From Rhodamnia argentea (taxonomy: Eukaryota; Streptophyta; Magnoliopsida; Myrtales; Myrtaceae): DNA of 64,000 nucleotides. The DNA lies in NCBI RefSeq assembly GCF_020921035.1, contig NC_063154.1, forward strand, positions 25,149,448 to 25,213,447. The letters run 5' to 3'. Position 1 is the first letter of the stretch. Each line of letters begins with the position of its first letter. The notes under the pieces were generated by a model that worked only from the letters and a program-made list of their open reading frames with translations, was not told the origin of the DNA and did no database searches. A program made the position numbers and the translations under genes. Below, piece after piece: positions 25,295 through 60,430 of this stretch.

Positions 25295-26195
25295 GTCCAA
25301 GCTCGAGAACCAGAAGGCGTTTGGTCTCTGAAAGTGAAGATGCAGCAGTCAGCACAAACCATAACAAACCATGAGAAAACGGGCAATTCAAATAATTACT
25401 TTTATGGCCAGTTAATCCTATTTAGACTCATTGGCTCCGTTAAGAAGTTATTAGATAGGTTAAAAGTTAATAATCTTGGGTAAAAACACTAATGGCCACT
25501 CGCCAAGTAAGTACGTTCTCATTTACTCCTTCCAAATGAAAAGGTAAAACAACCACCGGAAAAAAGTTTCTCACATCTATTAAAAGTTCATCGTTACCTA
25601 TTTATATTGTCAATCTCTCGTTCTTATCTGATGTTTTGTCCTATAATTGCTTGATCTTCATGTAATTTGATGTACATTTATTATTGTAAATGGGATAATC
25701 CCGATTCCTATTTAAGATCACTAAATTTTACCTGTATTCGCGATTTCATTCGATTTTAGTTTTGCAAACTCGACCTCCCCTCATGCAATCGTGAATCAAA
25801 TGTAGCTTCTCTTAAATATCGCACGAGTTAATGGCACATGTAGGCGATAGTTAAGTATATCATCATCATTGACCCCAAAAAAAAAATTGTTTATCATCAT
25901 CAATCAAAAGCCTCATCGAAGGAAATTATGGCCCTTTCAATTAAAATCTAAGGGAGTATTTCACTCTACATCACTATTCTGGTGATCTCGTTCCCGGCAA
26001 AAGCAGGATTCTTGGTGCTATCGGAGATGGAAACACATTTTCTATACTCAGTCATCAGCCTACAAAATTTCACTTCAACATATTCGATCCCTGAATTTAA
26101 CTCCAACATCCACAATCCGCTCGGCATTATGCATTCACCCAGCCTAGGAACAGCATGGAGGATACACGTACCGTCGGATGATCAAAATGGCAGGG
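25295..26195. other. intergenic region between PPR and FRS11-like genes
   Basis: AT-rich, with no supported gene. It contains the PPR promoter on its left side and the 3' flank of the FRS11-like gene on its right. Confidence 0.5.
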
Positions 26196-29100: not shown

Positions 29101-29279
29101 GCAGCATCATGAGTATCGAATCTCTGCCCAATGTACGGGACAGTCTCGTTAGCGCTTTCCAGGGAGAGCCTTGTTTCATCAAGAGACTCTTCGGCACTGC
29201 TGTTGTCATCTAAAGAGAAAGAATGCCGGTCAGACGGATCATCATAAGCCACTAACATCTGTCCAGTCCCCATCGACAT
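26196..29279 (-). CDS. FRS11: FAR1-related sequence 11-like protein (FHY3/FAR1 family)
   Basis: Exons are 29279-28302, 28047-27604 and 26813-26196, with GT-AG junctions in phase 0, giving 679 residues against about 680 for Arabidopsis FRS11. The family consists of transcription regulators derived from MULE transposases. In order: an acidic N-terminus, the FAR1 DNA-binding zinc finger (about 50-155, FYSEFAKRCGFSIRRHRTEG, CGCQAYMRI, NHHNHELL), the MULE transposase-derived core (about 265-420, AVVFDTTHRLTAFDMPLG, DQNMCLKEAI, ALCIWMIVSKFPSWF) and a SWIM zinc finger (Cys566, Cys568, Cys578, His580). The C-terminus has SKERLDIATEQVSILLSRI, probably helical. The best match I can recall is FRS11 rather than FHY3/FAR1. 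FAR1-family members act in light and developmental signalling; the role of FRS11 itself is poorly known. Confidence 0.93.
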
Positions 29280-30158
29280 ACTCCTCTCTTCCAGGAAAAT
29301 GTTTCTGAGGATCAGATCCCAAGTCCGATCATATCGTTCCTTTCAGGACAACACGGGTCAACTAACTCTGATGACAAGCAACAAATACCCCTGAAAAGAG
29401 AAATAGCTACCGGTTGGTGCACTGAGATATGGTTCCAAAACATAATCTATAGACCGAAGACTGCTTTCAACTAATCAAATGGAATAAGCCCTTCACCTGT
29501 TCCCAAACGATAAGCCCTCCACAAATTTTCAAGTCAAAGAACACATAGAGACATCACAGTTCATGAACCTCCTTTCTTCAACACCAGATCAAAAGAAACC
29601 AAATTGCAAACACATTGCCTCATCATTTTTCAATCTTGAACCAAAAGAAAAACAAAAACGTGAACAGCTTCCCCATTCATCTGCATTACACGAAGTTTGC
29701 ACATTGAACCCACATTTGCCCACTTCACTTCAAATCCGAATCGAGAACTCCTCCCCCTACTCGACACAATCCTAAACACGGTCGCTCTCAAGAAACCCAC
29801 GACCCTAAACAAGATTTTTCTCGCCTGCAATTCGCTACAGGTAGATTTTCCGAAGAAGTAAAGCACGGGACGATCGTAAATGCGGATAAGAGACGGAGAA
29901 GGGAGGGAGGTTACCGTTGAATTTTTTGAGGTCGGAGGAGCAGGGGAAAAAATTGAAATCCTTCTTCTTGAGGGAGGAACCCTAATCTGCGCAGGTAAGT
30001 GACGCGGACCCGTCTCGGATGGTCGCTATCGTGCGCCTTGTGTTGATGTCACGCCGCCCTTGCTCCCAAACTGAGCCGCTCGACCCGGAGCAGGGACGTA
30101 CAAGCTCCACAACCAAACACGAGATCCGAAACAGACCGACCGGAAAGATAAAGGCATC
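29280..30158 (-). other. 5' leader and promoter region of the FRS11-like gene
   Basis: A likely 5' untranslated exon lies near 29930-30000, where CT-rich sequence on the coding strand is followed on the transcript by a donor-like GGTAACC at about 29912. An intron would then run to just before the start codon. No separate gene is supported; short frames on both strands near 29563-29866 overlap each other. Confidence 0.35.
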
Positions 30159-30167
30159 AAGTAACGT

Positions 30168-32276
30168 GGCCCTAATTTCCTAAAAAATCTCTCAATTTTA
30201 GGTTTAGTTCAAAATACACCCCTAACCTTTTTTTGCCTCAGAAAAAATGTCAAACTTTAAGTTTAGTCTCAAATCTGCCCGAACTTTTTTTTCCCTAAAA
30301 AAAAACCTCGAACTTTAAGTCTAGTCTCATATCTACCCAAAAATAAATATCAAAGAAAATAATTACTAATTTTTACTCTAATATCAAATCTTCCCCCAAT
30401 AGCTATCCGATATCCTGTAATAGTTTTATTTTGGAGAATTTCAATAATTTTTATTGGGTGAATTTGTTATCCACGTGAAAATGCCACATCGATCCATACC
30501 TATCGTCCTATTATTTTGATGATGTGGATTTTTTTTTTTCAATTTGAAAATGTTATGTCAAGTTGGGACTGGACCATGGGTTAAATTTAAGAATAGGTTG
30601 ACAAGTTTGTTATTTTTTTACAAAATAAATTTTGTGGCAGGTTTGGGACTAGAACTAAAGTTGTTAGTTTTTCCCGAGACAAAAAATAATTTGGGAGAAA
30701 ATCTGGGACTAGACTAAAGTAGGGTTTTTTTCCAATTTATTTTTTTAAAATAAATATTTACAAAATTATTTTTTAAAAATAAATATTTATGATTTTGGGC
30801 CTCCCTCGGCAGGTTGGGCTGCGAGCGAGGCTCACTCGGCAGTTCAACCGCCGAGTAAGGTGGGGTTGGGCCCACCCAGTACTGGCGGTTATTGGCCGCC
30901 GAGCGACCCACTTGCTCGGCTAGATCCTGCGCCGAGCGGCCCATTTTTTTTAATTTTATTTTTTAAATAATTTTAATTATTTATACTTATAATATTTAGT
31001 TTATTTCATATATTTTTAACATGTTTATATTTATTTTATTTATAAAAGGCCTAAATCGATAAATATTTATTTTTAAAAAATAATTTTGTAAATATTTATT
31101 TTTAAAAAATTATTTTGGAAAAAAACCGAAAATCAAGCAAACGAATTAAAAACCGCATGGAAAGATTAAAAACCGCAACAAAAGAGTGGGAACGAGTAAA
31201 AAAATGGGAAAACTTTGAAAGAGCATATCTCATCGCTCGGGCGTCCGTTTGGGACGAATTTTTTTTTTATTTCACGTAATTTTTCGAGACGAATCCATTG
31301 CAAACAGCCATAGGCGGTTTGGCCTGGCTTTTTCCCCCAAAAATGCCATTTTCCTTGTCAATTTTGCATTTTCTCCCTCCGGTGCCATTTCTCGATATCG
31401 AACGAACCCTCCTTTCCCTCTTTCCTCTTTCAATCTTTCCATGCTAGACTCATTAAATCACGTCTTTTGTAGTGGGAAAGGGGTCTAGGCAGTTTTTCAT
31501 GTCCAAATTAAAGAGGAAAGAGGGAAAGGAGGGTTCGTTCGATATCGAGAAGTGGCACCAGAGGGAGAAAATGCAAAATTAACAAGTAAAACGGCGTTTT
31601 TTGGGGAAAAAGCCAGGCCAAACCGCCTACGGCTGTTTGCAATGGATCTGTCTCGAAAAATTACATGAAATCAAAAAAAAGTTCGTCTCAAACGGATGCC
31701 CGAATGATGAGATATGCCCTTCCAAAGTTTTGCCTTTTCTTTATTCGTTTTCACTCTTTTGCTGCGGTTTTTAATCTTTCCATGCGGTTTTTAACTCTTT
31801 TGTTGCGGTTTCCCATATATCTATTACTGCGGTTTCCAATATATTCCTGCGGCTATATTACATTATATCACAACATTATTTATTAATTATATATCTTAAT
31901 AAATATTTACATTAATTATTGCTAATAATGTTATAAATATAAGTTTCACGAGAAAAAAAATTATAAATAAAATAAATATTCTAAGTATCAATAATTAAAA
32001 AAATACGAAATTAAAAAAAAAAAAAAGATTGTGGGCCGGATTTGTGCCTTGCTCGGCAGTGGGCCTGCCGAGTGGGCCTCGCTCGGCAATCCACCCACCG
32101 AGCGAGGCCCAAATCAGTAAATATTTATTTTTAAAAAATAATTTTGTAAATATTTATTTAAAAAAAATTATTTTGGAAAAAAACCCACTAAAGTTTGGGG
32201 TTGTTTCTAAGACCAAAAAAAGGGGGCATATTTGAGCCTGAGCCCAAAGTTGAGGATTTTTACAGGGAATTGGGCC
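30168..32276. mobile_element. foldback Mutator-like element (2.1 kb)
   Basis: The ends GGCCCTAATTTCC and, reversed, GGCCCAATTCCC are inverted. The 9 bp on either side, aagtaacgt (30159-30167) and aagtaaaat (32277-32285), agree at seven positions, suggesting a decayed Mutator target duplication. Almost the whole element folds back on itself: AT-rich arms, then CTCGGC-rich blocks (30800-30945 and 32045-32110), then the core hairpin described separately. No transposase is visible. Confidence 0.6.
31160..31770. repeat. long near-perfect inverted repeat (hairpin core of the foldback element)
   Basis: The arms at about 31160-31440 and 31510-31770 are near-identical in reverse complement, for example catatctcat at 31221 facing atgagatatg at 31708, and gatatcgaacgaaccctcc facing ggagggttcgttcgatatc. 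The loop of about 70 bp lies between them. A transcript through it would form a double-stranded stem of about 250 bp. Confidence 0.85.
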
Positions 32277-36801: not shown

Positions 36802-39729
36802 CTAAGTGAAGTTGCAGAGAGACCGTAATCTTTTCTCGATGGCATCGTCTTGCCAGACCAGTGTAGACCACCATGATTGCTCCGCGTCGATGGATCTCAG
36901 ACTGATGGCATTTTCCCCGCTAAAGGGAAGTTTCAACAATGATGGACATGAAGCTATATCCAATCTCTCCAGAGAAGGCCAAATCAATGTGTCATCCGGT
37001 GTAATGCTCCTCAATTTCGGAAGATCATGAAGTACTAAGATTTTAAGACTCGGAAGGGTTCTCGAGTCCAAGCGAGGATTCTCGGTTTCAATGACGATCT
37101 CCTCAATTTCGTAGCACTCTTCGACACTTAAATGCTGAAGTTTGGATAGTTGCTCGATCAATCCATTTGAGAATATCTTCTTGAGCTTGGGGCAATTGTA
37201 AAAGCTTAAACTAGTCATTTGACCTAAGCTCCCCACAGGCACAGGACCAGGACCATTCCAAATGCAATGCAGACTTGGGGCACTCTTGATAACCATTCTC
37301 TCTAGCCATTCGAATGCAGGAGGTGGTGCTACATTACCGTCAATAATGCATATGATATCTTCGCATCCCTCCACTGAACAAGCTCTGAGTTTACTCATGT
37401 TCACAGTCCCAAAATCTGATAAGCTTGATATATTCTTGTGATCAATCAATTCAAATACATCGGTCTCGGTGAGTACTTCTGAGATCACAGGATGTACGCC
37501 TTCATCGTTTGCGTACTTCAAGCACTTGCACAACTGATATTCAAAATAATCAAGAATATGATACTTCACCGAAGTGCAAATACCGACTGAAAACTGAAAT
37601 GTGAAGCGCAAGTCTTTCCACAGAGGGCTTGATTTGACAAAGATTTCAAGGCACTCCACCTTAGGAAAGGAAAATGTCAGTGAAGTCAATCGCGTCAAGG
37701 TAGAAACCTCTTCCGTGATGGTCTTCACGACCTGGTCGGACCACAAAGTGGTTGGGTCTACATCAATGATGAGTTCTTCCAATGATGAAATGCTTGAAAT
37801 CACCTTGGACATTGGGATCCCAGTGCCAAAGTTTGACAACGACATACGTAAACATTTCATTTGCATTAAACATCCGACTTGAATAGGTAAAGAAAGGATT
37901 CCGGTGCGTCGAATGTCAAGCACCTCTAGATGCACCAGTGCCTCTAAGCTGGAAGGTAGTTCTGTTAAACGGGTGCAAGAATTCAAGTAGAGTGCCCTAA
38001 GATCAGTCAAGCAAGACAAAGAAGGTGGAAGAGATGCTATTGCAGTACCGTGCAAGTCCAAGACTCGAAGTCTTTGCATAGACAAGAAGAAGCCATCGGG
38101 GATCATCATTAAATTGTAATTCCTCTGCAGGAGTAAAGTAGAAAGATTTGTGCAATTTGATACCACTGGTAGAATGCACAAGTCATTATCCATCAAAGAA
38201 ATTCGATTTGCAGATGTCCATTCTTCTTCCTTTGGGGCCTCTTTTAGCCCCTCACATGTTCTTGCCAACAACTTATAATCTGGGCCTCCTGATGAAATTT
38301 TGAGGGCCATATTACGAAGTACTTTGTTCATTCGGACATGTCTCTTCGTGGCACTTCTTTCTAACAGAGATACATTAATCAAATCATGCAATATGTTGTG
38401 CCCTCTATCGCGTGCATCTCGAAACTCATCAATGCTGAGGAGAAATCCCTCCGCCTTCCAACATTCCATCAAATAGTCCACAAATATGTCGCAGTCTTCG
38501 GGAAACAATGCCCCATAAAGAAAGCAAACCTTTTTATCCTCTCCATCTAAATCATTGTAACAAAATTTCAGAAATTCAAGCACTTCATCCATACCTTGGA
38601 TTTTGATACTGGGCCATCTCTGCAAGCTCCTTAATCCATCTCTCCAGAGGTGAATGTTGTCCTTCTTCCTAAAAACCTTAGCCACTTTATCAATTAACAG
38701 TGGCAAACCAGCACACTCTCTAACCACAAGTTGTGCTATTGGTATAATGCTTGGATTTTTCATAGTTCGGCCTACTTTTTCTTCGAACATTTTATATGCA
38801 TCACCATAGGATAAACGCTTCATATTGACAAGCTCGTCCGCATCCATGTCATAGCACAAATCGCGGAATCTACTAGCAAATACCACCTTGCTGTCCTTGT
38901 TATTGTTGGGAATACCTATCTCATGTAGATCAAAAGGATCCCAAACTTCATCAAGGAGAAGTAAGTACCTCATGCCTCCCAACTCATTTGATATAAGTTG
39001 AGCAGTCTCAATTGCGGTGACTCCGGCCTCCACTTTTAGCTTCAGACGCTGCATGATTGAATCTTGCACCTTCTCAATGCTCCAGGCCTGCGACACCGAT
39101 ACCCAAATGACAATATCAAACATTTTCTTAACCTCTTCAGTATTATTCAGATTCTGCATCACCGTAGTTTTCCCGGTACCAACCATTCCCCAGAGTCCAA
39201 TCCTTTTGACATTTCTCTCCCTTAGATTACCCAAAATCTCTTCGACAGCCCAGTGTAGTGAAGGCTTATTCTCAGTGCTAGGAGCATATATGACTCTCAC
39301 AGGGTCCGGAGGTCTTTCAACTACCACCCCATTATCGAGCTTTCCTTCTTCTAACAAGACTTTTAGTTCCTCACGCTTCTTGGCCATATGCTTGCTGAGA
39401 TTTGCACGCGGCCAAAACCGAGGGAATCTCCAAGCATGTCTGATCTCTTTCTTGTACTTGCTTTCCAATTTGAGCACTTCTTGTTCGGCCACCTTGACCC
39501 TGTAAATCCAGCCTTCACATTCCTTGGTAGCCCTCTTCATCTTGTTTTTGTTTAGTTCTGCCTCTACATCATCCCTTCTTGCATAAAGCATTCTTGCTTG
39601 TTCTGTCATTTTCTCAAAATTGACATTGAAATCATCAGCATAGTCAATTTTTTGAGTGACGTAGCCAAAAATGCTACGTCCATCCTTGTAGGCTTCGACA
39701 GCTATCGCAGAAGCTGCTGCTTCAACCAT
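36802..39729 (-). CDS. CC-NB-LRR disease resistance protein (RPS2/At4g27190-like)
   Basis: A single-exon gene of 975 residues. The family are intracellular immune receptors that recognise pathogen effectors and trigger cell death. Order: a coiled-coil N-terminus of the type without EDVID (about 1-160), NB-ARC with P-loop GMVGTGKTT (181-189), RNBS-A FDIVIWVSVSQAW, kinase-2 LLLLDEVWD (256-264), RNBS-B KVVFASRF, GLPL as CAGLPLL (339-345) and RNBS-D CFLYGALFPEDC, then LRRs from about residue 515 to the end. The MHD motif is replaced by MNK (467-469, in HVRMNKVLRNMAL), so both the His and the Asp are lost. In kinase-2 the second Asp is Glu. The frame is otherwise intact. The ATG at 39729 (MVEAAASAIAVEAYK) was chosen because upstream codons lack ATG. 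It lies head to head with the LRR-kinase gene at 43620. Confidence 0.93.
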   Translation of the reverse strand: MVEAAASAIAVEAYKDGRSIFGYVTQKIDYADDFNVNFEKMTEQARMLYARRDDVEAELNKNKMKRATKECEGWIYRVKVAEQEVLKLESKYKKEIRHAWRFPRFWPRANLSKHMAKKREELKVLLEEGKLDNGVVVERPPDPVRVIYAPSTENKPSLHWAVEEILGNLRERNVKRIGLWGMVGTGKTTVMQNLNNTEEVKKMFDIVIWVSVSQAWSIEKVQDSIMQRLKLKVEAGVTAIETAQLISNELGGMRYLLLLDEVWDPFDLHEIGIPNNNKDSKVVFASRFRDLCYDMDADELVNMKRLSYGDAYKMFEEKVGRTMKNPSIIPIAQLVVRECAGLPLLIDKVAKVFRKKDNIHLWRDGLRSLQRWPSIKIQGMDEVLEFLKFCYNDLDGEDKKVCFLYGALFPEDCDIFVDYLMECWKAEGFLLSIDEFRDARDRGHNILHDLINVSLLERSATKRHVRMNKVLRNMALKISSGGPDYKLLARTCEGLKEAPKEEEWTSANRISLMDNDLCILPVVSNCTNLSTLLLQRNYNLMMIPDGFFLSMQRLRVLDLHGTAIASLPPSLSCLTDLRALYLNSCTRLTELPSSLEALVHLEVLDIRRTGILSLPIQVGCLMQMKCLRMSLSNFGTGIPMSKVISSISSLEELIIDVDPTTLWSDQVVKTITEEVSTLTRLTSLTFSFPKVECLEIFVKSSPLWKDLRFTFQFSVGICTSVKYHILDYFEYQLCKCLKYANDEGVHPVISEVLTETDVFELIDHKNISSLSDFGTVNMSKLRACSVEGCEDIICIIDGNVAPPPAFEWLERMVIKSAPSLHCIWNGPGPVPVGSLGQMTSLSFYNCPKLKKIFSNGLIEQLSKLQHLSVEECYEIEEIVIETENPRLDSRTLPSLKILVLHDLPKLRSITPDDTLIWPSLERLDIASCPSLLKLPFSGENAISLRSIDAEQSWWSTLVWQDDAIEKRLRSLCNFT

Positions 39730-41688: not shown

Positions 41689-43619
41689 TTACTTTCTTTG
41701 TGTCTTCTTCTTTAGTCGAGAGAGACCAAGTCCTTTTGATTTTTTTTTTACTCTGTCGTATCATATTATATGATAGAATCTATCTTGTATGCGCTATGTA
41801 TCGTGTGCAGATTACGACATCCCGCTCCCTCACTCACGCATCCCCACCTCCAACCCTAAGAAAGTGGAGACTTGCCCCTTCTCAAGCGGGAAGTTTGCCA
41901 CTGTAGCAACTCTCGTAATTTCGAGAGAAATAAATTCAATAACCAATTTTGATGACTAAAAACAAGTAGGACGAAATGACTATACCTTTTTCATTTTTTG
42001 GCTAAACAAACAAGCCATTTTATAAAGCTTCGTTTATTTTGAGAAAATAAATAATTTGCAAAAAAAAATCTCTTTTTTATTACTTGAAATAATTAGCCAA
42101 TTTTTTTTTATTATCGTCAAATATTTATATCTTATTATTCTCATGAACAATGAAAATACTTTTTATTCATTTATTTTTATAAGAGATAGAAGTAATCACT
42201 TTTATAAACATAGTTTTCATATTTTTTACTTTTCGCGAAATAGATACACATTAAATTTCTAACTTTAAGTGGATCAATTTTGTTGGAATTGTCGACCGTT
42301 ATCGGGATGGTGCATGCAATTTCTGCTCTCCCACCGAAAAATTCTTGGATATAACTTATACATGTATGCGACGTTCATAGGTATCATTAGATGAGATGGG
42401 CCCCATTTGGGACTAATGTGATCTAACGGTGCATGTTTAATAGTGAGGTGGTCACTGCTCTCAATTTTTTTTTTTAAGAACTCGTACTTCACTGATTCAT
42501 TATTGCGACTCGCTATTCGTAAGAGGTTATAGGTTCTGTCCTTGTGGGAACCAAAAGAGATCCAGAAATTTTGAAGATTTGATGTAAGAGAGAACTCGAC
42601 TAAGCAAATATGAGAGTAACGTTCAAAATACTTTTGCAAAAGCTTTAAACAAAGAAAATACAAGCTTAAGACTTATAAGTGTCAAAACTTGTGTACGACA
42701 CTCACTTTAATGTCAAAACTTTTAAAACGATCACTTAAGTGCCAATTTAAAAAAAAAATAATCATTTAAGTGCTAATTTTTTTAAAAATGATCACTTCAC
42801 TGTGGGCTCACCTTGCATTGCCTTGCCTCGCTTGAGGAGCTTGAGGAGGAGGCTCGCAGACATGTCGCAGAGCTCGATGTGAGGGCAGTTGTGGAGGAGG
42901 TGGGTGAGCTTGAGAGAGTTGGGATTGGTTTGTTTGGTGAGGTTGAAGAGGGACTCGGTCGCAGATCGAAGGTGGGACCATCGTGAATTGCTATGTTTGT
43001 TGAAATGAAAAGAAAAGCAGGGGTTGGGGCCTAAAAAGAAAAACGTAGAGTGGGCAATTAGGATTTTGAAATAAGAGGTTTCTAATTTTTTTTTTTTTGC
43101 GAATAAAAAAAGGAAAAGCAAGGGGTGGGAGGCGAGGATCATCGAGCTGCGCCAAAGGAGTGGGTGGATTAGGTTTTGAAGTGGGAGGGGTCTCTTTTAG
43201 TGATTTTTTTTTCATTTTTATTTTATTCTTTTTTGAGGGAATAAAAAAGAACATATATAAAAGTGATAATTTTATTCTTTTATTCTAGGCTTTTTTTGTT
43301 ATTTATTTATAGAATCATAAAAATGATAATTTATATAATGTGTCTCAATGTATCAATTTTTTTTATTATTTAATAAATCACATGTTGTATGTCACGTCGT
43401 GTAATATATCGTGTTTTATGTCGTATCGTATGTCATGTCAGTGCACTTAAATTACTCCACCAACAAGAAGAATTTCAACTAGGCCGAACCGGTCTTATCC
43501 GGACGCACTTGACCGGTTCGTTCGGATTCTACACCTAAGACGTTTATATCGGGAAACGGTTCGCGGACAGGGGACACTGCGTGCTTCATTTGCTTCTTCC
43601 TTCTTTTTGGAGTGCGATC
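41689..43619. other. intergenic region upstream of the LRR-kinase fusion gene
   Basis: Mostly AT-rich. On the minus strand, about 42998 to 42815, there is a GC-richer open frame (SLFNLTKQTNPNSLKLTHLL, HIELCDMSASLLLKLLKRG) ending at a donor-like CAAG|gtgagc. It looks like a captured or decayed coding exon, which I do not recognise. The promoter of the plus-strand gene should lie in the last few hundred bases. Confidence 0.4.
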
Positions 43620-46600
43620 ATGGGGAACATCAGAAGCAAGCCAGAGTCGATTGGGCAGTGGAGAAGCCATAGAAGTAGGGCGAGAGCAAGTTTTCCAACG
43701 CAGGCCTGCGATTCAGATCCTGCTTCGGTTTCAGGTTTGTCCGTTCAAGCATCCGATTCCGACATCTCTCGTAGTTACTTCATTTCCTCGAATTTTTCAT
43801 CCATGTTTGGTTTTTGGCTGGATTCTTCATGTGTTGTTTGGCTCAGGTACACCGCAACAGGTAGAGGAACTTGAGATATGTTGTGACGACGTCGAACCCA
43901 GTCGACCTGAATATAGCAGAACGGTCCTTATGTGCGGGGGTTTAGGACTGACGGCGCCTCCAGAAGTCAAGCAATGGCAGAGTTTCACAGAGATTTACTT
44001 GATGGAAAATCAGTTTACTGAGTTACCCGAGGATCCTCGGAGTCGTGTACTCTTGGCGTTGTTTCTGAATAGAAATTACAAACTTAGAATGATTACTCCC
44101 TCTTTCTTTGATTACATGCCTGCTCTGGAAATCCTGAATCTATCCCGAACTCGGATCAAGTCCTTGCCAGAGTCTCTGTTCAGGTTAAGCCGCCTAAAAA
44201 GACTATTCTTAAATCACTGTGAGCTATTGACGGTGTTACCTCCAAAAATTGGAGAACTTCAGCAGCTTGAGGTACTTGATCTTGAAGGGACTGAGATCAT
44301 GGATCTCCCAAAGGAGGTTGCCAAGCTCACAAAGCTCACTTGCTTAGAAGTATCTTTTTGTCGATGCATAAATCGGGGCACAAAATCTGCGAAAACTGCT
44401 GCATTGATTCCTCAAGGCACTATTTCTGCGCTCTCTAAATTAGAAGAGCTAAGTATTAATGTAAATCCGGAGGATGAGAGATGGGAAAATGTTGTGGAAG
44501 CTATTGTTGACGATGTTTGTGGCTTGACAAGGCTGGATACACTTAAACTGTACTTTCCACAGGTGGACCATCTCAGGAAATTTGAATGGTTTTGTATACC
44601 TAGATGGTTATCGCATTTCAAATTTATTGTTGGCAATCATGATGAACGCATCATGTCTCGTCTCCCAGTGGATCTTGAGCTTGAGTTTGAATACTGGGAT
44701 AGATCCCTCAGATATGTAAATGGTGTGGGTGTACCCATCAATATCCAAAATATGCTCTCGCATACTACTGCATTTTTTTTAGACCGCCATACGGATGTGA
44801 CTAAGCTATCTGATTTTGGGATTGAGAACATGGAGCAACTGAAATGCTGCATAATTGGGGAGTGTAATGAGACTCAGGTAATTATTGATGGAACTGAAAT
44901 GTACGATGAAGCTGATAGAAGTGAAATTGCATTGGAAACATGGGAGGATGATAGGAGGTTTCTTGGATCACTTGAGTATCTCTATGTATATCGTTTGAAG
45001 AGCTTGAGGAGCATTTATGAGGGGCCACTGCATCGAGGATGCTTGTCTCATCTTAAATGCTTGGTCTTACTGACATGTCCTCAGTTGACCACTATATTCA
45101 CACCTGAACTACTGAAAAACCTTGATAGCTTAGAAGAGCTCAAAGTTGAAGACTGCCCCCTTGTCAAAAGTTTAGTGAGGTGTGAAGATCCTTTAATTTG
45201 CAAGGGTACTTTCCTTCCCAGGTTGAAAAAGATATTCCTATTCTCTTTGCCTGAACTCATTGGCCTTTCCTATGGCCTTTGCATTGCACCAAACTTGGAA
45301 CAAATGAGCATTTTTGATTGTCCGAATCTCAGGCATCCATCAACTGATGAATTCTCTTGCAATCATCTGACAGTGACTGAAGGTAAGGGCAATAATCAGC
45401 AGAGAGTATTGTTTTGTTGAAATTATGCAGGTCTTTTTCTTTCACTTTCGTTTTATACAGTTGATTGAACAAGTTAAAGCTGCAAGCCCAGCTTTAATTA
45501 AGAGAATTGGAAAGTCAACACTTATCTGAATGAACTCTTATCTTTTTCAAAGTGGATACCTGATCTATTAACCTTAAAGCAATGGTTTATATAAGCTCTG
45601 TAAACAAGTGATGTTCAATACTTTAATATTCCCTCTCATGTTCAAACCCAAATAAAACCTTTGATGAACGCACTTTAGGAATAATATAGAGAAAATATCT
45701 TACTCGAAATGAAATATTAAATGGGGCATGAAAAATCAAAAGTTGACTCTAGTACCAAATAAAAGTCCTATCTGAAAGTTTAACTTATTTAGTGGATGCT
45801 GACCATAAGACCATTAAAACCCGAAAAGAAGCAAAGTGGGGTATTTTGCCATTATGTGTAGCTTCTTATTGTGAATTTATAGTCTAATTCTGGTTTTGCG
45901 CTTTGGTGACTCATGCATTTGCCCCACTAACACTTGTCAAGTCGGAGAATTTTTTCTCTCTAAATGTGCCATTATGCCCAGTCTATGAAACTCTTTTGTT
46001 CGACATGCGATTGTCATTTCCCACTTAAATGACTCATGCTGTAGCCCAATTGGAACTTGCCTAGTTACTCTCTGAGGCTCTCTTTAATTTCCAGCATCCT
46101 TAGGAGTGTGCTTTGTTTTCAGAATTTTAATTGTTAGTGTTGGTTTGGCAAGAGAAGAACAATTATTGTGCATTATACATGATCTAGTAATGGGTGATGA
46201 CAGCGAAGTTCTCATACGAAGAGATAAGTTTGTGACAGATCTAGAGTAGGTTGAGGGTGTGATATGCTAACAAGTGAGTGTTCAGTGCCTCAGAGATTGA
46301 GAAAGTCGTACATCAGGTAGACAGGACATTGGCATGCTGAGTTGCTTGAAGAAAGCTTTTGTGTTTCAATAGGTATTGAGTGGTGTTATGTCATGAACTG
46401 GAGCTGAAAGTGGTGAAGCTCGTTGAGGAGTTGATTGATTCATAGGATTGTTTTTGTTTATATCAAGAGATCAGGTAGATTTATTGCTGCTTATCTTTTT
46501 CCATCACTCTGATTATGTTGTCATAGTTATCTGTTGTAGACCACAGATATCCACCTGGGTGACTACATGCTCCTCTGTTCGGGATTGGATGTTTCCTAGT

Positions 46601-49600
46601 ATTGCAAAAGTAACACGTGCTAGGCCAACTGGCAGATTAGCTGATTCATCTTTAAATTCCTGTTTAGATGACGTGGCCTGGTGCTTGTTATTCATCTAAG
46701 TGTGGTTACTCGTTTTGCCTAATACGCTGATTTTGTGTTTGAGCAGCGCAAAGTATTCCAAATGATGCAAGCAGAGAGCACCCTGCTCCTCCTGTGGTTT
46801 CATCTACGACCACTGATAATGAAGCAGTTAACCCTTCAACTACTAAACTCAAAAGGGAGCCTAGAGTTGCTCCTCGGCTGCGGAAATCCTTATTTAATGA
46901 CCTTAAGTTAGCTTGCAGAAACTTTGGTTCTGCAAGTCTTTTCGGTGAAGGTGGTTTTCGCTGTGTACGTGATGTTACAAATGATACAAGCGGAGAACAG
47001 CCTGTCTCTCCTGGGATTTCATCTACAACCACTAGTAATACAGCAATTAACGCCTCAGTTTCCTTGAAGACCACCAGTAATTCAGCAATTACATCTTCAA
47101 TTTCATCGAAGACAGCTAGTAAAACTACCATTAACCCTTCAACTTCTAAACTTGAAGAGGAAATTCTAGTTACTCCTCTGCTGCGGGAATTTTCGTTAAA
47201 TGACCTTAAGTTAGCTACAAAAAACTTCAGTAATGCCACTCTGCTCAATAGAGGTGGTTTTGGCAGTGTCTTTAAGGGTTGTATTAAAGAAAATGGCACT
47301 GGGCTGATGGTTGCTGTTAAGAGACTCAAATGCGATTGGATCCAGGGTCGCAAGGAATGGCTGGTGATGTATCATCCAATGATCTCTTATTTCGGGATTG
47401 ATGCAGGTTTGACTGTTAGTATGACATTTCATGTGTTGCGCTTTCCATGTGGCAGGCTGAAGTGAAGCATCTTGGTCATGTAGGACATCCAAATTTGGTA
47501 AACTTAATTGGATATTGCATTGAACTCGATGAAAGGCTGCTAGTATATGAGTTTATGCAACGAGGGAGCTTGGAGGATCAGCTCTTTAAAATGCGCAGTG
47601 GTACTTTACTACGTGCCTGGTGCCCTTAATGACGTCTTACATTATGTTCTTACTGTATAAGTTTTCATGGTGAAACAATCCTCCTGTAGCTGTATATTGA
47701 ATGTGTCTCCCAAGAAACTAATAGATTGCTACTAGCATCTAGATAATAATGTGAAGGAGAGAGAATCATATTTGTCCTAATTATGGGAGTCTTTCCAGAA
47801 GATAATAGGGCTTGGAATCATATTTACCCAAAAAAAATTGGTTAAAAATCTCGTCCTCTGTTGGATGTTCTTCTGCCTGAAATGTTTTTAAGTAAATTGC
47901 TTGTTTGTTGTTGGAGCCACTGCCAACCCAAGGATGCGATACCTGGGACTTTCACTGTTATCAAACTCAGAGGACTTTATTGTTCGAAGCCAGTAAGAAA
48001 AAGGAAAGAAATGTCGGGAGATCAGAACTGGTCGTGAAATGTCACTTTTTAGCAGCTTCATCCGTGTGATGATCGTAGTATCATTTTATCACCTTTGTCT
48101 CTCAGTACTACAAGTAGGTTTAGCTGAGCTTTCCTTTGCGTAATTTCTTCACAGTTATTTATCAAAAGTTGGTATCAGTTTTAACCTTAACTATCTTTGA
48201 CTATGGTGGCTTCACAAAGGGAACATTGATTTATCTGTGATGACAAACATTTATAACCAGTTCTTGTTTTCTTTTGTGGGCTGTGTAGGAGCGACTCTGC
48301 CTCTTTCTTGGTCTACCAGGATGAAAATAGCCCTGGATGCTGCAAAGGGTCTTGCTTTTCTTCATGAGGAAGCAGAACCGAAAGTGATATGCCGTAATTT
48401 TAAAACTTCCAAGATTCTATTAGATGCTGTATGTAGCAAAAGCTGTGGCAACATTCTTTTTCCTTTTTAATTATGTGGTTCCACTTTCTTATAACTTGTC
48501 TTTTTTCAGGACTACAATGCCAAGCTTTCTGTTTTAGGAGTTGGAAGATTTTATCCCAAGGGAGATGACTCTCCCGTATTCCCCCAAACTCACTTTGCCA
48601 CCAAAACCATTGGAACATATGGCTATGCTGCCCCGGAATATGTGGCGACTGGTATGTAAATGTTAGTAGGGGCAATTTGAGGATGAGAACTGTCCAAGTC
48701 ATCTGCATAAAAATGGTTTGAGTAATAGACGAATTATGATTAGCAACTGAATTGAATTAGGCTGGTCAATCGTGACCAAAAAGACAAGAAAATTAGAGGA
48801 ATGGTTATACACTGATATACCTACCTTTCTCTATGTGCATTTGGTCTCCTCCAATTGCAATGTATGGTGTCTGTATCATATTTTTGCCTGGGAGGAAACT
48901 GGAAAATTTGCTGGACGCTCACTTGTGGCGAAAGGCTAAATATATGCCAGTCATAGATGTGGACATCATGAGTTAGTGTTCCTAGGTGATCTAGATTTAC
49001 AAGAACATGTAAATTTGGATCTTGAGGGTGCAAATTACGCGAGTTCATAAGCCACATTAATCACGCATTGCTGGCAAGTGAATTTTTTTTTTTTGGTTAA
49101 TGTTATTCTTTTCAAATAATGAGAGAAGTTCGCTACACCCTTCGATCACCCGATTAATTCCCATTAGGTCCGGTACTTTTTGGTAGGATTTGTAACCAGT
49201 AATAACCGAAACATGGATTCATAATTAAAGTTCTTTCGTTATATGAAGGCATTTGATTTTATCTTTTACATCTGTTGATTTTGAGTTGAAATTTTCATAT
49301 TTTATTTCTGATCTACATTTGTCTTTATAAATTTAAGTGAAGGCAATGCATGAACAAGCGTTAACTATGTTATCTAAAATTGAGATAATTTTGATTTGAC
49401 GATTTCTAAGAGTAGGCATCATTCTGAATTTGAGATTTGGTAGTTAGTTCATGTCTATTTGCTATAAATTATTACCTCCCCGAAGCAGATACCTGATTTT
49501 GATTGCTATAAGAAAAGGAAGTGATGGAAGGACAAAGAACTAAGTTATTGTTTCAGCCTTTTGGGTCAAGTACCTGTTTTTGATTGCTAGAGGTGAGGGT

Positions 49601-50099
49601 TGAGACATTTGGCAGGGACCTCATGGATTGTACCTATATCTAACATAGGATCATTTGGTACTTGTTTTGTGTATCCCCGTCCAGTGACTGCCCATGTTGT
49701 ATTGCAGGGCACCTCATGGCAAAGAGCAATGTCTATGGTTTTGGTGTGGTTCTTTTGGAAATTCTGACCGGATTGCGAGTCATAGACCAAAGTCGGCCTT
49801 CCAGTCAGCATGACCTTGTCGAATGGGCTCGTCCATCTCTAACAAAGAAACGAGAGTTGCACAGATTGATAGATCCAAAGCTGGAACGTCGATACTCACT
49901 AAACGGAGCCCGCATTGCTTCGCAGTTGGTCGCTCACTGCCTTAGCCACGATCCAAGACTTCGTCCCCAGATGAGTGAAGTTGTTGAAGTTTTGAAGGGT
50001 CTCCAAAATTTCCAGATAAGGCAAACTTCATCTGAAATTGTCAGAACGAGCCAGGGAAGCTCTAGCAGTGGAATGGCTTTTCAAGGCAAACCGCGGTGA
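43620..50099 (+). CDS. fusion protein: myristoylated N-terminus, NLR-type LRR domain, RLCK-VII (PBL-like) pseudokinase
   Basis: Exons 43620-43734, 43847-45382, 46747-47363, 47456-47600, 48289-48428, 48510-48651 and 49708-50099 join with GT-AG borders in one frame of 1028 residues. Exon 1 encodes [10 protein letters not shown], a textbook N-myristoylation signal (Gly2, Ser6) like those of PBL kinases. Exon 2 encodes an LRR domain of RPS2/At4g27190 type (about 40-550; [20 protein letters not shown]) with no coiled coil or NB-ARC. Exons 3-7 encode a kinase resembling RLCK class VII; the C-lobe ([16 protein letters not shown]) recalls At2g17220. The ATP lysine is kept (VAVK, 742), but the HRD Asp is Asn841 (CRNFKTSK), DFG is VLG (859-861) and the helix-F Asp is Asn906. 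A membrane-anchored pseudokinase receptor or decoy is inferred. The alternative is two adjacent genes, an LRR remnant and an RLCK; RNA evidence is lacking. Confidence 0.7.
45383..46746 (+). other. intron 2 of the fusion model (1364 bp)
   Basis: It joins the LRR exon to the kinase exons, with donor GAAG|gtaagg at 45382 and acceptor gagcag at 46746. It carries no convincing alternative first exon for a free-standing kinase: I see no ATG-MGN-type exon ending in a compatible donor. Readthrough past the donor would stop within 13 codons. Confidence 0.5.
46759..47270 (+). repeat. in-frame internal duplication of linker and kinase start
   Basis: Unit 1 (46759-46977, 219 bp) and unit 2 (from 46978) share the same order: [18 protein letters not shown] / [18 protein letters not shown], then [15 protein letters not shown] / [15 protein letters not shown], then FGEGGFRCV / LNRGGFGSV. 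Unit 2 has about 28 extra codons of Ser/Thr-rich linker. The frame stays open, so the protein would carry a truncated extra glycine-rich loop (residues 615-624) before the true N-lobe (716 onward). Confidence 0.85.
48652..49707 (+). other. intron 6 of the fusion gene (1056 bp)
   Basis: AT-rich intron with a poly-T run near 49084-49096. No embedded gene is supported. It interrupts the codon for Gly899 within the activation-segment region YVATG|H, a position conserved in RLCK-VII genes as far as I recall. Confidence 0.5.
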
Positions 50100-50990
50100 G
50101 TTCAGTGGAAGAAATGCAAGTCTTTCAACTCTGGAAGCCAATTGTAAAGCGCAGCAATGTGTCTGCAAACAGCCGTCCTTCCAACTCCATTTGTTTCCTT
50201 TTCTCCTCATCCTGTTTTTGTTCCAGGAATTTCAATTTTTGTAGTTTGCTCTACAACCTGAAAGTCTAGATTGGACAAAACTTTTGGGCTCAAGATCGTT
50301 TTTCTTTTTGGGCACGGACGGGGCTAAAGGGCCTTAAAAAAGCCTAGAAGTGTGAGCCAACCCAAAGCCATCATCATTAAGAATTAGAAAGACATATGTA
50401 GAGGTTGATATAATGAGAAAATGGCATATTTCTCCTGAAAAAAAAAGAACCATTAAAGTCATAAAAACCAAGCTGACCTAGCAAATTAATCAGCAAATGG
50501 GCTTAGAATGAGGACCAAATTCGATAAGGCTGCCGAAACTATAGATTCCTCTTCACTTATAATAATGCAGATGTTAGTTTCATAGGAACTTATAGAGGAG
50601 TAGCTCAATCATTAGCTCTTTAATTTCCTAAACGCTTTAATCCGAAGCACTTGAAACTTTTTATAATGTACAAATATCGACAGATGGATTCATTGATATC
50701 GTTATTCTGTTCTATATTTTTCATTTGTCGCGCTACTACTACCTGCCGTTTTATATCCAATGTAAATAGATCCACATCCATAGCATGTGCCCTCCATTCC
50801 AGTATGGAATTCTGTGCCAGCATGCAATCTTTTTAGATGGTAGCAGAAGAAACCAAGAAAGAAAGACCGGAAAGAGAATTCATAGCTCTTTTACTAGTTG
50901 AAAGGAGAGAGGGAGAGAAGGACATCAGCGCAGGAAATGGAGCACAAAAGATTTCTAGTTGATGATCTTTGGCTATGTTGGAGACATGAA
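50100..50990. other. 3' flank of the fusion gene
   Basis: Probable 3' untranslated region followed by intergenic DNA. No gene is supported; short overlapping frames near 50620-50836 are on opposite strands and show no domain. Confidence 0.5.
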
Positions 50991-53270: not shown

Positions 53271-55732
53271 GGCATCACACCATCAGCTAGAGAGGATGGA
53301 GCGTTAATTGGATTTCCTTGAAAGGGTCCGCCTAGCTTGACGGTAGGGTCTCCGTGATGGGAGCAACAGTTCAACTTCGGTCCCACTTTTTTATGGATGA
53401 ATAGGGGGAACTGGTTCCAGCGGTTTCATTTTCTTTTAATTCCCATTTTCTCCACTTAATTTAGGATTAGATTAGAGAATTTGGAAAGGAAATATTATTA
53501 GCCAACATTACCGAAATCACAATTGGAGAGTAAGTGGAACATTTTGAAAATGAAGAATGGAAAAGCAATTCAAATACCAAAATACAAGATAATCACAAGT
53601 AAAAATATATTATCACTAACATTTACCAACCATATCCCCCAAATATTTTTCTTTGGTAGAAAATGATATTGACTCCTTTAAAAGTTTCACTTAAATTTTT
53701 TTTGTAAAAATTGTCAAAAATTTTATAAATCTATTGCACTTTTGCCAATTAAATCATAAACCTTTTTAATTTGCCAACTAAGTGATAAATATTTTCACTT
53801 TTTACTAATTGAGCGAAAATCGCTCATGTGGACGCCAACAGCCCTACGCTGCATGATTGACGATGACGTGGACAATTTTACATAATATTGTACTTTTTTA
53901 ATTTATTCTAATTATTATTTTTTTACTTTGGTTTTCTTCTTCATCGGCCGGTGAGGCCTATAATGCCCACCAATTGCAGATGAGGGCTACAGCAATCGCC
54001 GGACCTAGTTGGCCATAGGCAAGGTAGCCTTGCCGAAATCCGGGGAGGGCCACAACCATTGCCTACAGTCGGTGAGGCGTCGCTACCCTCGCCAAAGGTC
54101 GGCGAGGGTGTTGCGGCCCTCGCCCGTAGCCAGCGAGAGGGTAGGTTGGTGAAGAAGAAATAAAAGGAAAAAAAAAAGAAAAACAAAAAAATTGAAAAAT
54201 ATGTTAAATATTATTTAAAAAGAAAAATAATTTGCTAATAGTACCGAATAAACAAATAGAAATATCCCACTAAATGGATATTTTTCGATTAAAGAAAAGA
54301 TTGAAGTAGACTTAAAATTTTTAGGAAAATTGTCAAAAAATTCCTAAACCGATTGCATTTTTGTCATTTCAGCTTCGAATCTTTTAAATTTGTCAATTGA
54401 GTCCTAAACATTTTCACATTTTTCCAGTTGAGTCCTATGAGCTAGAATCGCCGACGATGGATGCCCCGTCCTACGTGGCAATGCCGGCGCCGACGTGGAT
54501 AATTTTAAATAATATTTAACAATTTTCTGAATTTTTTGTTTTGTTATTTTTTTCCTCTGATTTCTTCTTCAACAACCGATGAGGGTCGCTTAGCCCTCAC
54601 CGACTGCGAGCGAGGGCCGCAACACCCTCGCTAACTGCCGGCGAGGGCCGTGACACCTCACCGACTGTGGGCAAGGGTCGCGACCCTCCCTAGATCTCAA
54701 TAAGGCAACCTTGCCTGTGGCTAGTAAGGTCAGCGATGGCCGCAACCCTCGTCCGCAGCTTGGCGGGCGTTATGCCCTTCGGCCATTGAAGAAGAAAACC
54801 AGAGTAAAAGAATACAAAATTAGAAAAAATGCAACAAGTATAATATTATTTAAAATTTACCATGTCAACGCCGATCGTACCATGTAGGACTGTTTCAACG
54901 ATTTTCAGTCAATAGGACTAAATTAGCAAAAAGTGAAAATATTTATAACTTAATTGGCAAACTTAAAAGGTCTAGGCTAGCGTTGCGGCCCTCACTGGTT
55001 GGTTTTGATATTGATTGTAGAGATCGCCATGCTCATTTTAACAATTGGGAATAGGATTTCGTTCCATTGGGGGGCTCGATCTCAATGCTTCGTATACTTC
55101 TTTCACAAACTTCTATCCCTTGGAGATGTCATGAAAAGGGTGATCGTCATTGCCAGGCAAATAAGAACATGAAAGCTCGAAGCACTTTTGCTAGATCACC
55201 ACGTAATTCGGCAACCCCCCTTCGCAATGAATGTTGAAATGTAGGTTGAACTTATGGAAATGTTTCAAGTACTTCGGTTTCCTGAGGTTCCTAGAGAAGG
55301 GCGAAAACAATTTGAGGTCCAAATATGAGTTACTAATCATTCATATCCAAGAGAAATTAGGAATATCAGTTGGTTGCAACATTTTTAGCACTATTATATC
55401 TTATTGCATTTGTTGTGCAACTTAGGAATTTATTACTACATATCATCACTCTCTAATGACAATTTAGAGTTAGGTGATCATATGGATTTGTAGTAAGAAA
55501 ATCAAACTCCACCAGTTCTAATATTTGAACAAAGACAAAACCTTTTTTTTATTTATTTATCATTTTATGCTCATTTATATTTTTGAATGGCAAGATATAT
55601 TCAATTCTCTCACTTGCATATAAAATGACTAGACCGTGTCATTGATTTGGGTTTCAATAAGCTAAAAGCTCGAGAGTTTGATCTCTGATCGCGACAGGAT
55701 CTGTCTTTTAGCCACAAAAAAAAAAAAAGTCT
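53271..55732. repeat. repeat-rich intergenic DNA with two related foldback elements
   Basis: Two segments, about 53690-54250 and 54320-54990, share a similar opening (attgtcaaaaa... then ...tttgccaa or tttgtcaattgag) and a GC-rich core of gagggc/ccctcgcc motifs (53945-54140 and 54580-54790). The second clearly ends in an inverted copy of its start (ggcaaacttaaaaggtctag near 54955-54977). They look like non-autonomous DNA transposons of one family. No genes are supported in the rest. Confidence 0.5.
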
Positions 55733-57930
55733 TTTTACTATCTTTCAAGTTCTATCGCATTTCATTTTGAACTCAGGCGTCGTTTTCGTAACAAATCAAA
55801 GTTGGACTTTTGGGTCGAAATAGTAAAAGAAAAAGGAAAATAGATATTACATAGATAACAAACGAAAGGCGAATTCGATCTCTCTGCTAACCGTCTCCCT
55901 TATATTAAGCGATTCATCTTTCTCTTCCTTTGATTTTTTCTTCACAACTGACTCCGCTTTCTCTGCTAACCGCGCAAGTCATCTGTGCGATACTTTAGCG
56001 ATTAATCTCTCTCTGCGCTATCCGTCTCCTTCATATAAGCAATACTTTTGTTCCTTCAAGGTCACGCACACGTTCAGAAAAGGGGAGGAGAAGAATTCTC
56101 TCTTTGATGCTTCTCTCCCCTTCTTCCTTCTCTGGCCACCACCAGCACGGCAGCTCCTCCTCTCCCTCATTCCTTTCTTTCTTCTCACTTCTCCTACGGC
56201 GGCTTCGAGTTCGGGAATCACTTCATTAGCGGAAGCTTTCACCACTTCGAAGGAAACGAAGCAAAGCTGAATCACCCTCTGCTCTTCTCGTTCGATTTGT
56301 CATGTCGAGCTCAAGATCGCTGGATTATGGCTACAAAACCGAAGCTAAGTTTTATGGGATTCTCCCTTTTCTATTTTTCGGTTTTTCATCCAGTCATCTC
56401 TCTCATCTATCCGTTTTCTCCTCTACTTCCAGTGTTTTCGTGCTTGCTTCTGAAGCTCCGATTGCTCCGGTGGCTCTACCTCCAATCACCGTCGCTTCAA
56501 GTTCCTCTTCCACCGATACCGATCTTCCGTTGTAAGGCTCTCTGGAGATCTGCTCCTTGGTTAAATCACCGGCTGCACCTTCAAGTTGAAATGATCGCCC
56601 ACCAGACATTTTGCATGGGCAAATGCCTACATAACAGTCCTTGTCACTATTTTGCATGGGTAACGGACCATTATTAACCAAAAAATGTGTTGCTTGGGAC
56701 CTTATGACTGGCTTATCCGGTTCCTGCAACATTGCCTTTTTATTCTAGATGCAAACTAAGAATCAATGTCCATAAATTATTGCCTTTTACATTCCTTTTT
56801 TTCCCGATGGCTTTCTACTCCTCCTCTTTTTATCTTTTGCAGGGTCCTCTTCTCTTTTTCGTAGCACGCCGTTAGCTTTAGCCGCTGGTCCAAACGCATA
56901 GCCGAATCTCCCTCTGCTCTTCTCTTGAGGCCTAACTTGGAGCGGTATCATTTCATCCAATTTGTCATGTCGAGCTCTAGACGGCTGGATTATGGCAACA
57001 AAAATTTACAGGTATTCAAATTTTAATTATTAGCTGCTCCAATGCAAATCTTAGTGATTAACTATCATAACCTACGTATCATGCCTCTCTTTCGGAACTT
57101 GTATGATGTGAATTTTATCTTGCATATCCAAAAATTTACAAGTTTTAACTTCACTTATTTTGGACAATTATATGAAGCATATACTCCAGAGATGAAGTCT
57201 CAAGTTGAAATTCACTTGGTCAATTTGAGAGCCCAATTATTTTAATAAAATTATTTGAACTGCTTGAGTATTTTGTTATTTTGGCTGTAAACCAATCATG
57301 AAGGAGCAACAATTATTATTATTATTATTTTTTTTTGGGAATGTTGTCCCACTTTGTTGTCAAATCGGTGCTTAGTAGAAAAATCAAACTCTCTCAATAG
57401 CCGATTTCCTTGTTGGAAAATTAGTGGCTGATAAGCACCGTCACCAGCAGCACCAGCTGGATGTGAAAGAGTCATCAGCTTAGCAACGCCCTTGTTGAAC
57501 AAAACAGTTGATTATTCTGTTCAAAAAACATCCCTCGTCACCCGGAAAATAGAGGACGTGAAAGTGGGGTGGGCCTTTCCGAGAAAATATGACACAGATA
57601 GAGGATTCGTCTTGAAGGAGAGAAAAAGTCAAAACAAGAGAGAAATAGAGTTGGCAAAGCAGAGAACAAAAAGTAAAAACAAGAGAGAAATAGAGTTGAC
57701 AACGGAGATAAAAAAAAAAAGGAAAGAACGAGGTAGAAAGAAATATCAGAGAGAGAGAGAGAGAGAGTCGAATAAGATGTAGACTTGATCACTTGATCGA
57801 TGATGGCACTTTGAATAATGGAAGTGATTGGATTAGCTGCCAAAATCAAGATAGACGTGATTGAGTAATATTGAGGATTGCTCTTTAAGAAGTAAATATA
57901 TATAAAAATAAAATTAGCTAAATCGTTTTT
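55733..57930. repeat. duplicated unit, copy 1
   Basis: About 2 kb closely matching 58463-60430 in the same orientation. Shared landmarks are gtcgttttcgtaacaaatcaa (55782), the CT-rich leader-like stretch, the frame MSSSRSLDYGYKTEAK (56302), its shorter echo (tgtcatgtcgagctctag, 56960), and a GA-rich tail with gagagagaga (57750). The frames are short and differ between copies, so I do not claim a protein. It may be a promoter-bearing gene remnant or an unclassified element. Confidence 0.7.
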
Positions 57931-58437: not shown

Positions 58438-58462
58438 GGAAAAAGATTTAGCTGATTTTTAT

Positions 58463-60167
58463 TTTTACTGTCTTTTAAAGTTCTATTTCATTTTATTTTG
58501 AACTTAGGTGTCGTTTTCGTAATAAATCAAAGTTGGACTTTTTGGTCGAAATAGTAAAAGAACAAGGAAAATAGATGTTACATAGATAACAAACGAAAGG
58601 CCAATTCGGATTAAGCACAACCTACTCCGCTTTCTCTGCTAACCATCTCCCGCATATTAAGCAATTCATCTATCTCTTCCTTTGATTTTTCTTCAGCGTG
58701 CTAAAAGAAGAAGCGTGCCCCCAACAACCGACTCCGCTTTCTCTGCTAACCGAGCGATTCATCCGTGCGATACACAAATTTAGCAATTAATCTCTCTCTC
58801 TCTCTCCCCGCGCTAACCGTCCCCTTTATATAAGCAATAGTTTTGTTCCTTCAGGGTCACACACATGTTCAGAAAAGGGGAGGAGAAGAATACTCTCTTG
58901 ATGTTTCTCTCCCCTTCTTCCTTCTCCGGCCACCACCAGCACAGCAGCTCCTCCTCAGCGCCGCCGTCACCTCATTCCTTTCTTTCTTCTCAGTTCTCCT
59001 ATGGCCGCTTCGAGGTCGTGAAGCACTTCATTAGCGGAAGCCGTTTCATCCGATTTGTCATGTCGAGCTCTATATTGCTGGATTATGGCTACAAAACGGA
59101 AGCTAAGCTTTCTGGGATTCTCCCATTTCTATTTTTGGTTTTCGATTCAATCACCGCTCAGATCTTTCGCTCTTCTCCTGTATTTACAGTATTTTTGTGC
59201 TTGCTTCTGAAGGTCCTCTTCATCGACCATGTTACTCGAATAGCACTCGATGCTATTAGGATCAAGATGGTGACGATTGCTCTGGGGGCTCTACCTCCAA
59301 GCACCGTCGCTTCAAGTTCCTCTTCTACCTCCAAGCACCGTGGCTTTTAACTTGCTATTTTTCTTTTTTCTTTTTCCTTTTCTGATGGCTTTCTACTCCT
59401 TCTCGTTTTATCTTTTGCAGGGTCCTCTTCTCTTTTTCGAATCAGTTCATTACTGCCGTTGGCTTTCGCCGCTGGTCCAAATGCATAGCTGAATCTCCCT
59501 CGGCTCTTCTCTTGAGGCCTAGCTTGGAGCGGGATGATTTCATCCAATTTGTCTTGTCGAGCTCTAGATGGCTGGATTATGGCAACAACAATTTACAGGT
59601 ATTCAAAGTTTAATTATTAGCTGTTCCAATACAAATTTTAGTGATTAGGTATCATAACCTACGTATCATGCCTCTCTTTCGAACCTTATATGTTGTGAAT
59701 TTCATTTTTTATCTTGCATATTACAAAATTTACAAGTTTTTAATTCACTTATTTTGGGCAATTATAAGAAGCATATACTCTAGAGATGCGTAAATAAGTC
59801 TCAAGTTGAAATTCACTTGGTCAATTTGAGAGCCCAATTATTTTAAATAAAATTATTTGAACTGCTTCGAGTATTTTCTTATTTTGGCTGTAAACAAGGA
59901 GCAAAAACCATTTTTTTTTTTTTTTGGGAATGAAAGGTCCCACTTGTTGTCAAATCGGTGATTGGTATAAAAATCAAACTCTCTCTATAGACCGGTTTCC
60001 TTGTTGGAAAATTCGTGGCTGATAAAGCATCGTCACCAGCTGGAGTGAATCCGTCACCTTAGCAACGCCCTTGTTGGGCAAAACAATTGGTTATTCTGTT
60101 AAAAAAAAATCCCTCGTCACCCGGTAAATAGAGGTTTTGGAAGGGGTGTGCCTTTCACAGAAAATTT

Positions 60168-60208
<41 letters not shown>

Positions 60209-60430
60209 TCTCTTGAAGAAGAGAAGAGGAAAAAACAAGATAGAAATTGAGTTGGCGGAGGGGAGAACAAAACGACAGAACAATAAATCAAAAGAAAAGG
60301 TAGAAATAAATATCAAAGAGAAGAAGATGATCACATAATCATCATACTAGCATGGCGACTGATGGCCGTTTGAATAATGGCTGCCCGAATCAAGATAGAC
60401 ATGGTCGAGTAATATTGGAGATTGCTCGGC
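58463..60430. repeat. duplicated unit, copy 2
   Basis: Direct copy of 55733-57930 with small indels. It holds the same leader-like CT-rich sequence, MSSSILLDYGYKTEAK (59060), a second shorter echo (tgtcttgtcgagctctag, 59550) and a GA run at 60172-60203. Both copies contain TATA-like tatataagcaa followed by the CT-rich segment, which looks like a promoter and leader. Confidence 0.7.

Follow-up and report, generated by a model that had tools for sequence, protein, structure and literature searches.

A single gene in the window, the 64,000-nucleotide stretch of Rhodamnia argentea DNA analysed here, probably encodes one fused reading frame in which an RLCK-like pseudokinase follows an NLR-type LRR domain. 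Seven GT-AG exons between 43620 and 50099 (+) join in frame, and translation gives a predicted product of 1028 aa with one terminal stop. The leading explanation, held tentatively, is that an RLCK gene captured the LRR-coding piece and that the product would be a membrane-associated sensor or decoy that signals by way of an NLR. An NLR receptor would combine an NLR-type LRR, which is present, with an NB-ARC domain, which is absent; an NLR-ID would carry NB-ARC and kinase in one protein, and here there is the kinase without the NB-ARC. As an in-silico gene model with a kinase and another domain in one ORF, the gene does answer to the description of a kinase fusion protein. It is tentatively placed by its sequence as a variant among kinase fusion or integrated-decoy proteins.

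Exon 1 (43620..43734, +) opens with MGN and supplies 38 codons and 1 nt, ending in phase 1. Exon 2 (43847..45382, +; 1536 nt) encodes the NLR-type LRR domain as a stop-free phase 1-1 cassette of about 511 codons. In exon 3 (46747..47363, +), a linker rich in Ser and Thr, internally duplicated in frame and carrying two degenerate glycine loops, leads into the start of the kinase N-lobe with its VAVK stretch. The kinase runs on through exon 4 (47456..47600, +), which holds the alpha-C WLAEV stretch, exon 5 (48289..48428, +), in which the catalytic-loop YRDFKxxN has become CRNFKTSK, exon 6 (48510..48651, +), in which DFG reads VLG and APE is retained, and exon 7 (49708..50099, +), which encodes the C-lobe and C-terminal tail and closes with a TGA stop. 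The sequence-only reading had proposed this chain and singled out the junctions 43734/43847, 45382/46747 and 47363/47456; all three are GT-AG and keep the frame, and with the borders of exons 4-7 set in this analysis the whole chain is borne out as a reading frame of 1028 aa.

The LRR exon has the strongest splice signals of the gene. Scored with approximate matrices over the region 43500-50200, its donor takes rank 1 among 402 GT sites and its acceptor rank 10 among 431. Three of the kinase-exon donors are mediocre (47600 at rank 26, 47363 at 41 and 48428 at 48, of 402), and at exon 4 the in-phase 47600 is preferred over 47597, which ranks 359 of the 402 GT sites. Across both strands of the window, 43847/45382 is the sole pair with an acceptor score of at least 3.5 and a donor score of at least 5 flanking an open frame of 1200-2500 nt; looser cut-offs (acceptor 2, donor 4) admit three such pairs, every one using donor 45382. 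This uniqueness is support and not proof, since the matrices are approximate and the borders were perhaps first chosen by the same signals. Coding character points the same way. None of 3000 first-order Markov sequences with the composition of exon 2 was open in any forward frame. A codon model trained on 2793 codons from other genes of the window, a neighbouring NLR of the same family among them, scores exon 2 in its own frame at +0.16 bits per codon, the highest of the six frames, and the forward frames of intron 2 at -0.27 to -0.38; in introns 2 and 6 every one of the six falls below zero. With the neighbouring NLR removed from training (1815 codons), the own frame of exon 2 is still best at +0.10 and the introns stay negative. 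The model does not discriminate in exons 1 and 6.

The same phase that lets the LRR exon join in frame also lets it drop out. The most serious rival, which we regard as somewhat unlikely, holds that the LRR exon is optional or ignored: exon 1 would mostly be spliced straight to exon 3, the main product would be a plain RLCK-type pseudokinase of 516 aa, and the LRR would be a passenger or a minor isoform. It is serious because a phase 1-1 cassette can be removed without loss of frame; the end of exon 1 and the start of exon 3 are both in phase 1, and the skipped form of 516 aa is fully open. It has to contend with the rank of the LRR exon's donor and acceptor, with 511 open codons, and with the rarity of that openness in no-selection simulations if the insertion is old: out of 2000 runs at each level, 105 left the exon without a stop at 0.05 substitutions per site, 6 at 0.1 and 0 at 0.18. 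These simulations allowed substitutions only and started from the present sequence.

The kinase domain is by sequence a pseudokinase, which would have kept its fold and lost catalysis. Its best solved-structure matches are PBL2 (6j5t; 173/308 aligned residues identical) and BIK1 (5tos; 165/310), followed by ScRIPK (8ho6) and by two entries titled "hypothetical protein", which would make it closest to PBL/BIK1, or RLCK-VII-like, among solved structures. Over 305 compared columns, 147 are invariant in PBL2, BIK1 and ScRIPK, and the fusion retains 115 of them. Among the 32 changed positions are the loop's first glycine, the catalytic Asp (N841), the catalytic-loop Asn (K846) and the DFG Asp and Phe (V859 and L860), the rest being scattered across the domain; PBL2, BIK1 and ScRIPK all carry D, N and D where the fusion has N841, K846 and V859. 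The VAVK Lys and the WLAEV Glu are retained. The activation loop has gained a six-residue insertion, and the VST ahead of its conserved GT reads FAT; the Ser-Thr pair of VST we take to be the target of AvrAC. The GDK/GDL stretch, presumably the AvrPphB site, is GDD in the fusion. A search for relatives of the kinase part in viral contigs, a non-plant collection silent on plant relatives, gave 10 pattern matches and 0 confirmed.

Exon 3 records repeated duplication within an intact frame. One copy of 169 nt lies at a spacing of 303 (71% identity) and one of 83 nt at a spacing of 219, and a 42-nt unit is present four times, at spacings of 219, 42 and 42; each spacing is divisible by three. What the duplications left is a pair of defective glycine loops, GEGGFR at 617 and NRGGFG at 718. 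Between the longer duplicates, 55 codons give a dN/dS of 1.06 and 27 codons one of 1.26, values near 1 that suggest a lack of constraint on the linker amino acids, or their fast evolution, in a frame that has survived; two comparisons of 13 codons each give 0.33. Such values, the degraded glycine loops and the lost catalytic residues are what would be expected of a gene in decay, whether a recent fusion or an RLCK that is being lost, functionless and still open. We consider this unlikely, as 1028 codons carry no stop or frameshift and 115 of the 147 positions common to related kinases are kept. The dS of the duplicates is 0.36, or 0.18 per copy, and at 0.18 substitutions per site exon 3 remained stop-free in 127 of 2000 no-selection runs and exons 3-7 in 1 of 2000; the latter figure argues against decay if the dS of the duplicates dates these exons, their age being applied to the other exons by assumption.

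The LRR of the fusion belongs to NLR families, and its NB-ARC is missing. Pfam matches on exon 2 are LRR_14 (7.6e-20), LRR_RPS2 (2.2e-16), LRR_8 (1.1e-14) and LRR_4, above the Pfam cut-offs, as is the kinase match behind them, and the Pfam scan of the fusion returned no NB-ARC. No remnant NB-ARC lies by the LRR exon either: the neighbouring NLR, used as a query at E up to 1, matches only itself and the LRR exon across the window. Pfam, the alignments and the exon chain thereby support the architecture first suggested for this locus, an MGN exon with an NLR-type LRR and an RLCK-like pseudokinase but no NB-ARC. Single-sequence structure prediction of the LRR exon was unusable (mean pLDDT 34.5). 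Its relatives were sought in prokaryote genomes, where 27 pattern matches yielded 0 confirmed; this collection, too, is non-plant and silent on plant relatives.

The LRR exon stops short of an NLR C-terminus. Reading on past donor 45382 adds 12 residues before a stop at 45418-45420, and these show almost no identity to the C-terminus of the neighbouring NLR; as a guess, the donor may have arisen inside former NLR coding sequence. A reading as two transcription units, in which the MGN-LRR protein ends at that stop in intron 2 and the kinase is separate, seems improbable. The frame is open to 45420, and AATAAA hexamers at 45651 and 45758 in intron 2 make early polyadenylation possible, but the kinase would then need its own beginning. 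A kinase start inside 45383-46746 had been named earlier as the alternative to one fused gene; a sequence scan of that interval finds a lone 10-nt first-exon candidate (filtered for phase 1 and a donor score >2), which is not credible, and the sole Met in the exon 3 frame, at 47307, falls inside the N-lobe. A separate kinase gene starting inside intron 2 was rejected for want of a credible first exon. Under the single fused gene, retention of intron 2 could give a third product, an MGN-LRR protein that stops at 45420.

Exon 1 suggests that the fusion protein may be membrane-associated. The N-myristoylation pattern GNIRSK, a pattern match only, starts at residue 2, and the exon has 6 K/R. A Cys at position 4 is usual alongside such an anchor; exon 1 has none there, its sole Cys being C30. 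Hydropathy reaches at best 0.23 in 19-residue windows starting in the first 60 residues, so there is no hydrophobic N-terminus, and in a simple scan of the whole fusion one 19-residue window exceeds 1.6 (1.77 at residues 501-519, within the LRR exon). An LRR receptor-like kinase was considered and rejected, because a signal peptide or hydrophobic N-terminus is absent; the LRR, moreover, matches NLR families. The first intron of the fusion gene is in phase 1 and follows its short MGN exon; the usual pattern of RLCK-VII genes would be such an intron behind a short lipidated exon. The phase common to exons 1 and 3 fits the insertion of an LRR piece in the first intron of an RLCK gene.

A CNL-type NLR stands head to head with the fusion. 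This neighbour (36802..39729, -) is an uninterrupted frame of 975 aa with Pfam matches to NB-ARC (1e-43), WH_DRP and LRR_RPS2. At its MHD region the letters are RMN by eye, EDVID does not occur in the frame as an exact string, and the best solved match of this NLR is 9h2l. RPS2-type G10 NLRs are described, in the available part of one source, as lacking EDVID and forming octamers (PMC12856790). The two genes are divergent with start codons 3.9 kb apart, and of the pair the fusion is the one without NB-ARC. The sequence-only reading is supported by sequence on the architecture of the fusion, and its idea of a membrane-anchored decoy carrying a recognition domain of its own would be compatible with it; it overlooked the isoform that joins exon 1 to exon 3 and, in the text given, this NLR of the same family.

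By BLAST, 169 of 484 aligned positions (35%) are identical between the LRR exon and the LRR of the neighbour, an identity that marks the two as family members and not recent copies. The alignment covers residues 20 to 494 of 512 on the LRR exon; on the neighbour it runs from 486, ~15 residues past the MHD region, to 934 of 978. When a global alignment is forced, the first 19 residues of the LRR exon fall weakly on the MHD region of the neighbour. Over 440 aligned codons, identity is 0.525, 0.600 and 0.334 at codon positions 1, 2 and 3, and the pair was judged too diverged for dS. The neighbour could be a mere nearby family member.

The capture can be pictured as follows. An RLCK-VII gene of the PBL/BIK1-like kind would have taken up, inside its first intron, an LRR-coding piece of an RPS2-type NLR, and the two would now form one gene; we infer this direction and route from the phases and domains described above. 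The piece would have come without the NB-ARC, stopped short of the NLR C-terminus and become a phase 1-1 exon. The kinase would have lost catalysis and kept its fold, before or after the LRR capture. If expressed, the product would be a membrane-associated LRR-pseudokinase, most likely a sensor or decoy: effectors aimed at PBL kinases might bind or modify the pseudokinase, and the LRR might hold or sense it. Signalling would require an NLR executor, for which the head-to-head CNL is the first candidate.

To our knowledge, a protein without an NB-ARC should not form a resistosome alone, which is one reason for favouring a sensor or decoy that acts through an NLR. The other is precedent: the LRR of ZAR1 works with a PBL kinase and a pseudokinase, and some kinase fusion receptors are NLR-dependent. 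As far as the accessible text goes, the ZAR1 LRR binds the pseudokinase RKS1 and ZAR1-RKS1 recognises modified PBL2 (PMC12856790), and dependence on an NLR is stated for some kinase fusion receptors (PMC12830362). A fuller version of the sensor, in which a lipid-anchored PBL-type pseudokinase is the bait, an RPS2-type LRR accompanies it without NB-ARC, the divergent same-family NLR executes, and splicing of the LRR cassette switches the gene between plain pseudokinase and sensor, is quite unlikely as a whole. A regulator that is not a sensor seems very remote: at a receptor complex its pseudokinase would compete with the active PBL kinases, and its LRR would give only partner specificity. Such a scaffold or dominant-negative role would suit the kept kinase scaffold and lost catalysis but leaves the NLR that stands head to head, with an LRR from the same family, without a role.

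Barley Rpg5 offers the closest layout. Rpg5 has a C-terminal kinase and lies head to head with HvRga1 (PMC6570958, PMC4246468), and both loci set an NLR beside a protein joining an NLR LRR to a C-terminal Ser/Thr kinase. As Rpg5 is described in the portions available, however, it has a nucleotide-binding domain, whereas the fusion has none and combines a kinase without catalytic residues with an N-terminal myristoylation pattern. NLR-integrated kinases likewise hold LRR and kinase in one frame; according to the excerpted text of Sarris et al. 2016, catalytic Lys and Asp are conserved in all of them (PMC4759884), whereas the fusion keeps the Lys, has lost the Asp and has no NB-ARC. A survey of NLR genes in 305 angiosperm genomes, again as excerpted, reports Pkinase in the NLRs of 105 species (PMC12787737).

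The cereal kinase fusion proteins Sr62, RWT4, WTK3 and Pm4 join a kinase to another domain or kinase, and some rely on an NLR; in the parts of the sources available they are described without an NLR-derived LRR, whereas the fusion here has one, with an RLCK-like pseudokinase (PMC12830362, PMC12839863). The available text of one 2026 paper terms kinase fusion receptors cereal-specific (PMC12830362). The ZAR1-RKS1-PBL2 system resembles the fusion in that an NLR LRR works with a pseudokinase and a PBL kinase, but its components, as set out in the accessible text, are separate proteins, and the fusion is one NB-ARC-less chain with an LRR that is RPS2-type by Pfam (PMC12856790). PBL2 and BIK1 are the nearest solved kinases, from which the fusion differs in its lost catalytic residues, in the LRR exon between MGN exon and kinase, and in having no Cys4. 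Among the matches listed in the open-licence literature, no NB-ARC-less fusion of an NLR LRR and an RLCK was seen, and the earlier remark that such an architecture was not a known one holds to that extent.

If expressed, the gene would reverse the direction of the integrated decoy: an effector target would have gained the LRR of a receptor, in place of a receptor gaining a target. It would also add to the kinase fusion proteins one with an NLR-derived LRR. The locus would then allow a test of whether a decoy can be sensed in cis by an LRR and the response executed by a separate NLR.

The surrounding window holds further genes and repeats. Pfam matches identify a Core-2/I-branching enzyme gene at 18093-19508 (+), a PPR-DYW gene at 23372-25348 (-) and a FAR1/MULE/SWIM gene at 26199-29342 (-). 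A 1.1-kb inverted self-match at 30944-32020 (76% identity) is perhaps a foldback element. Beyond the fusion gene, 55732-57682 and 58462-60283 form a direct duplication in two blocks of 75% and 82% identity.
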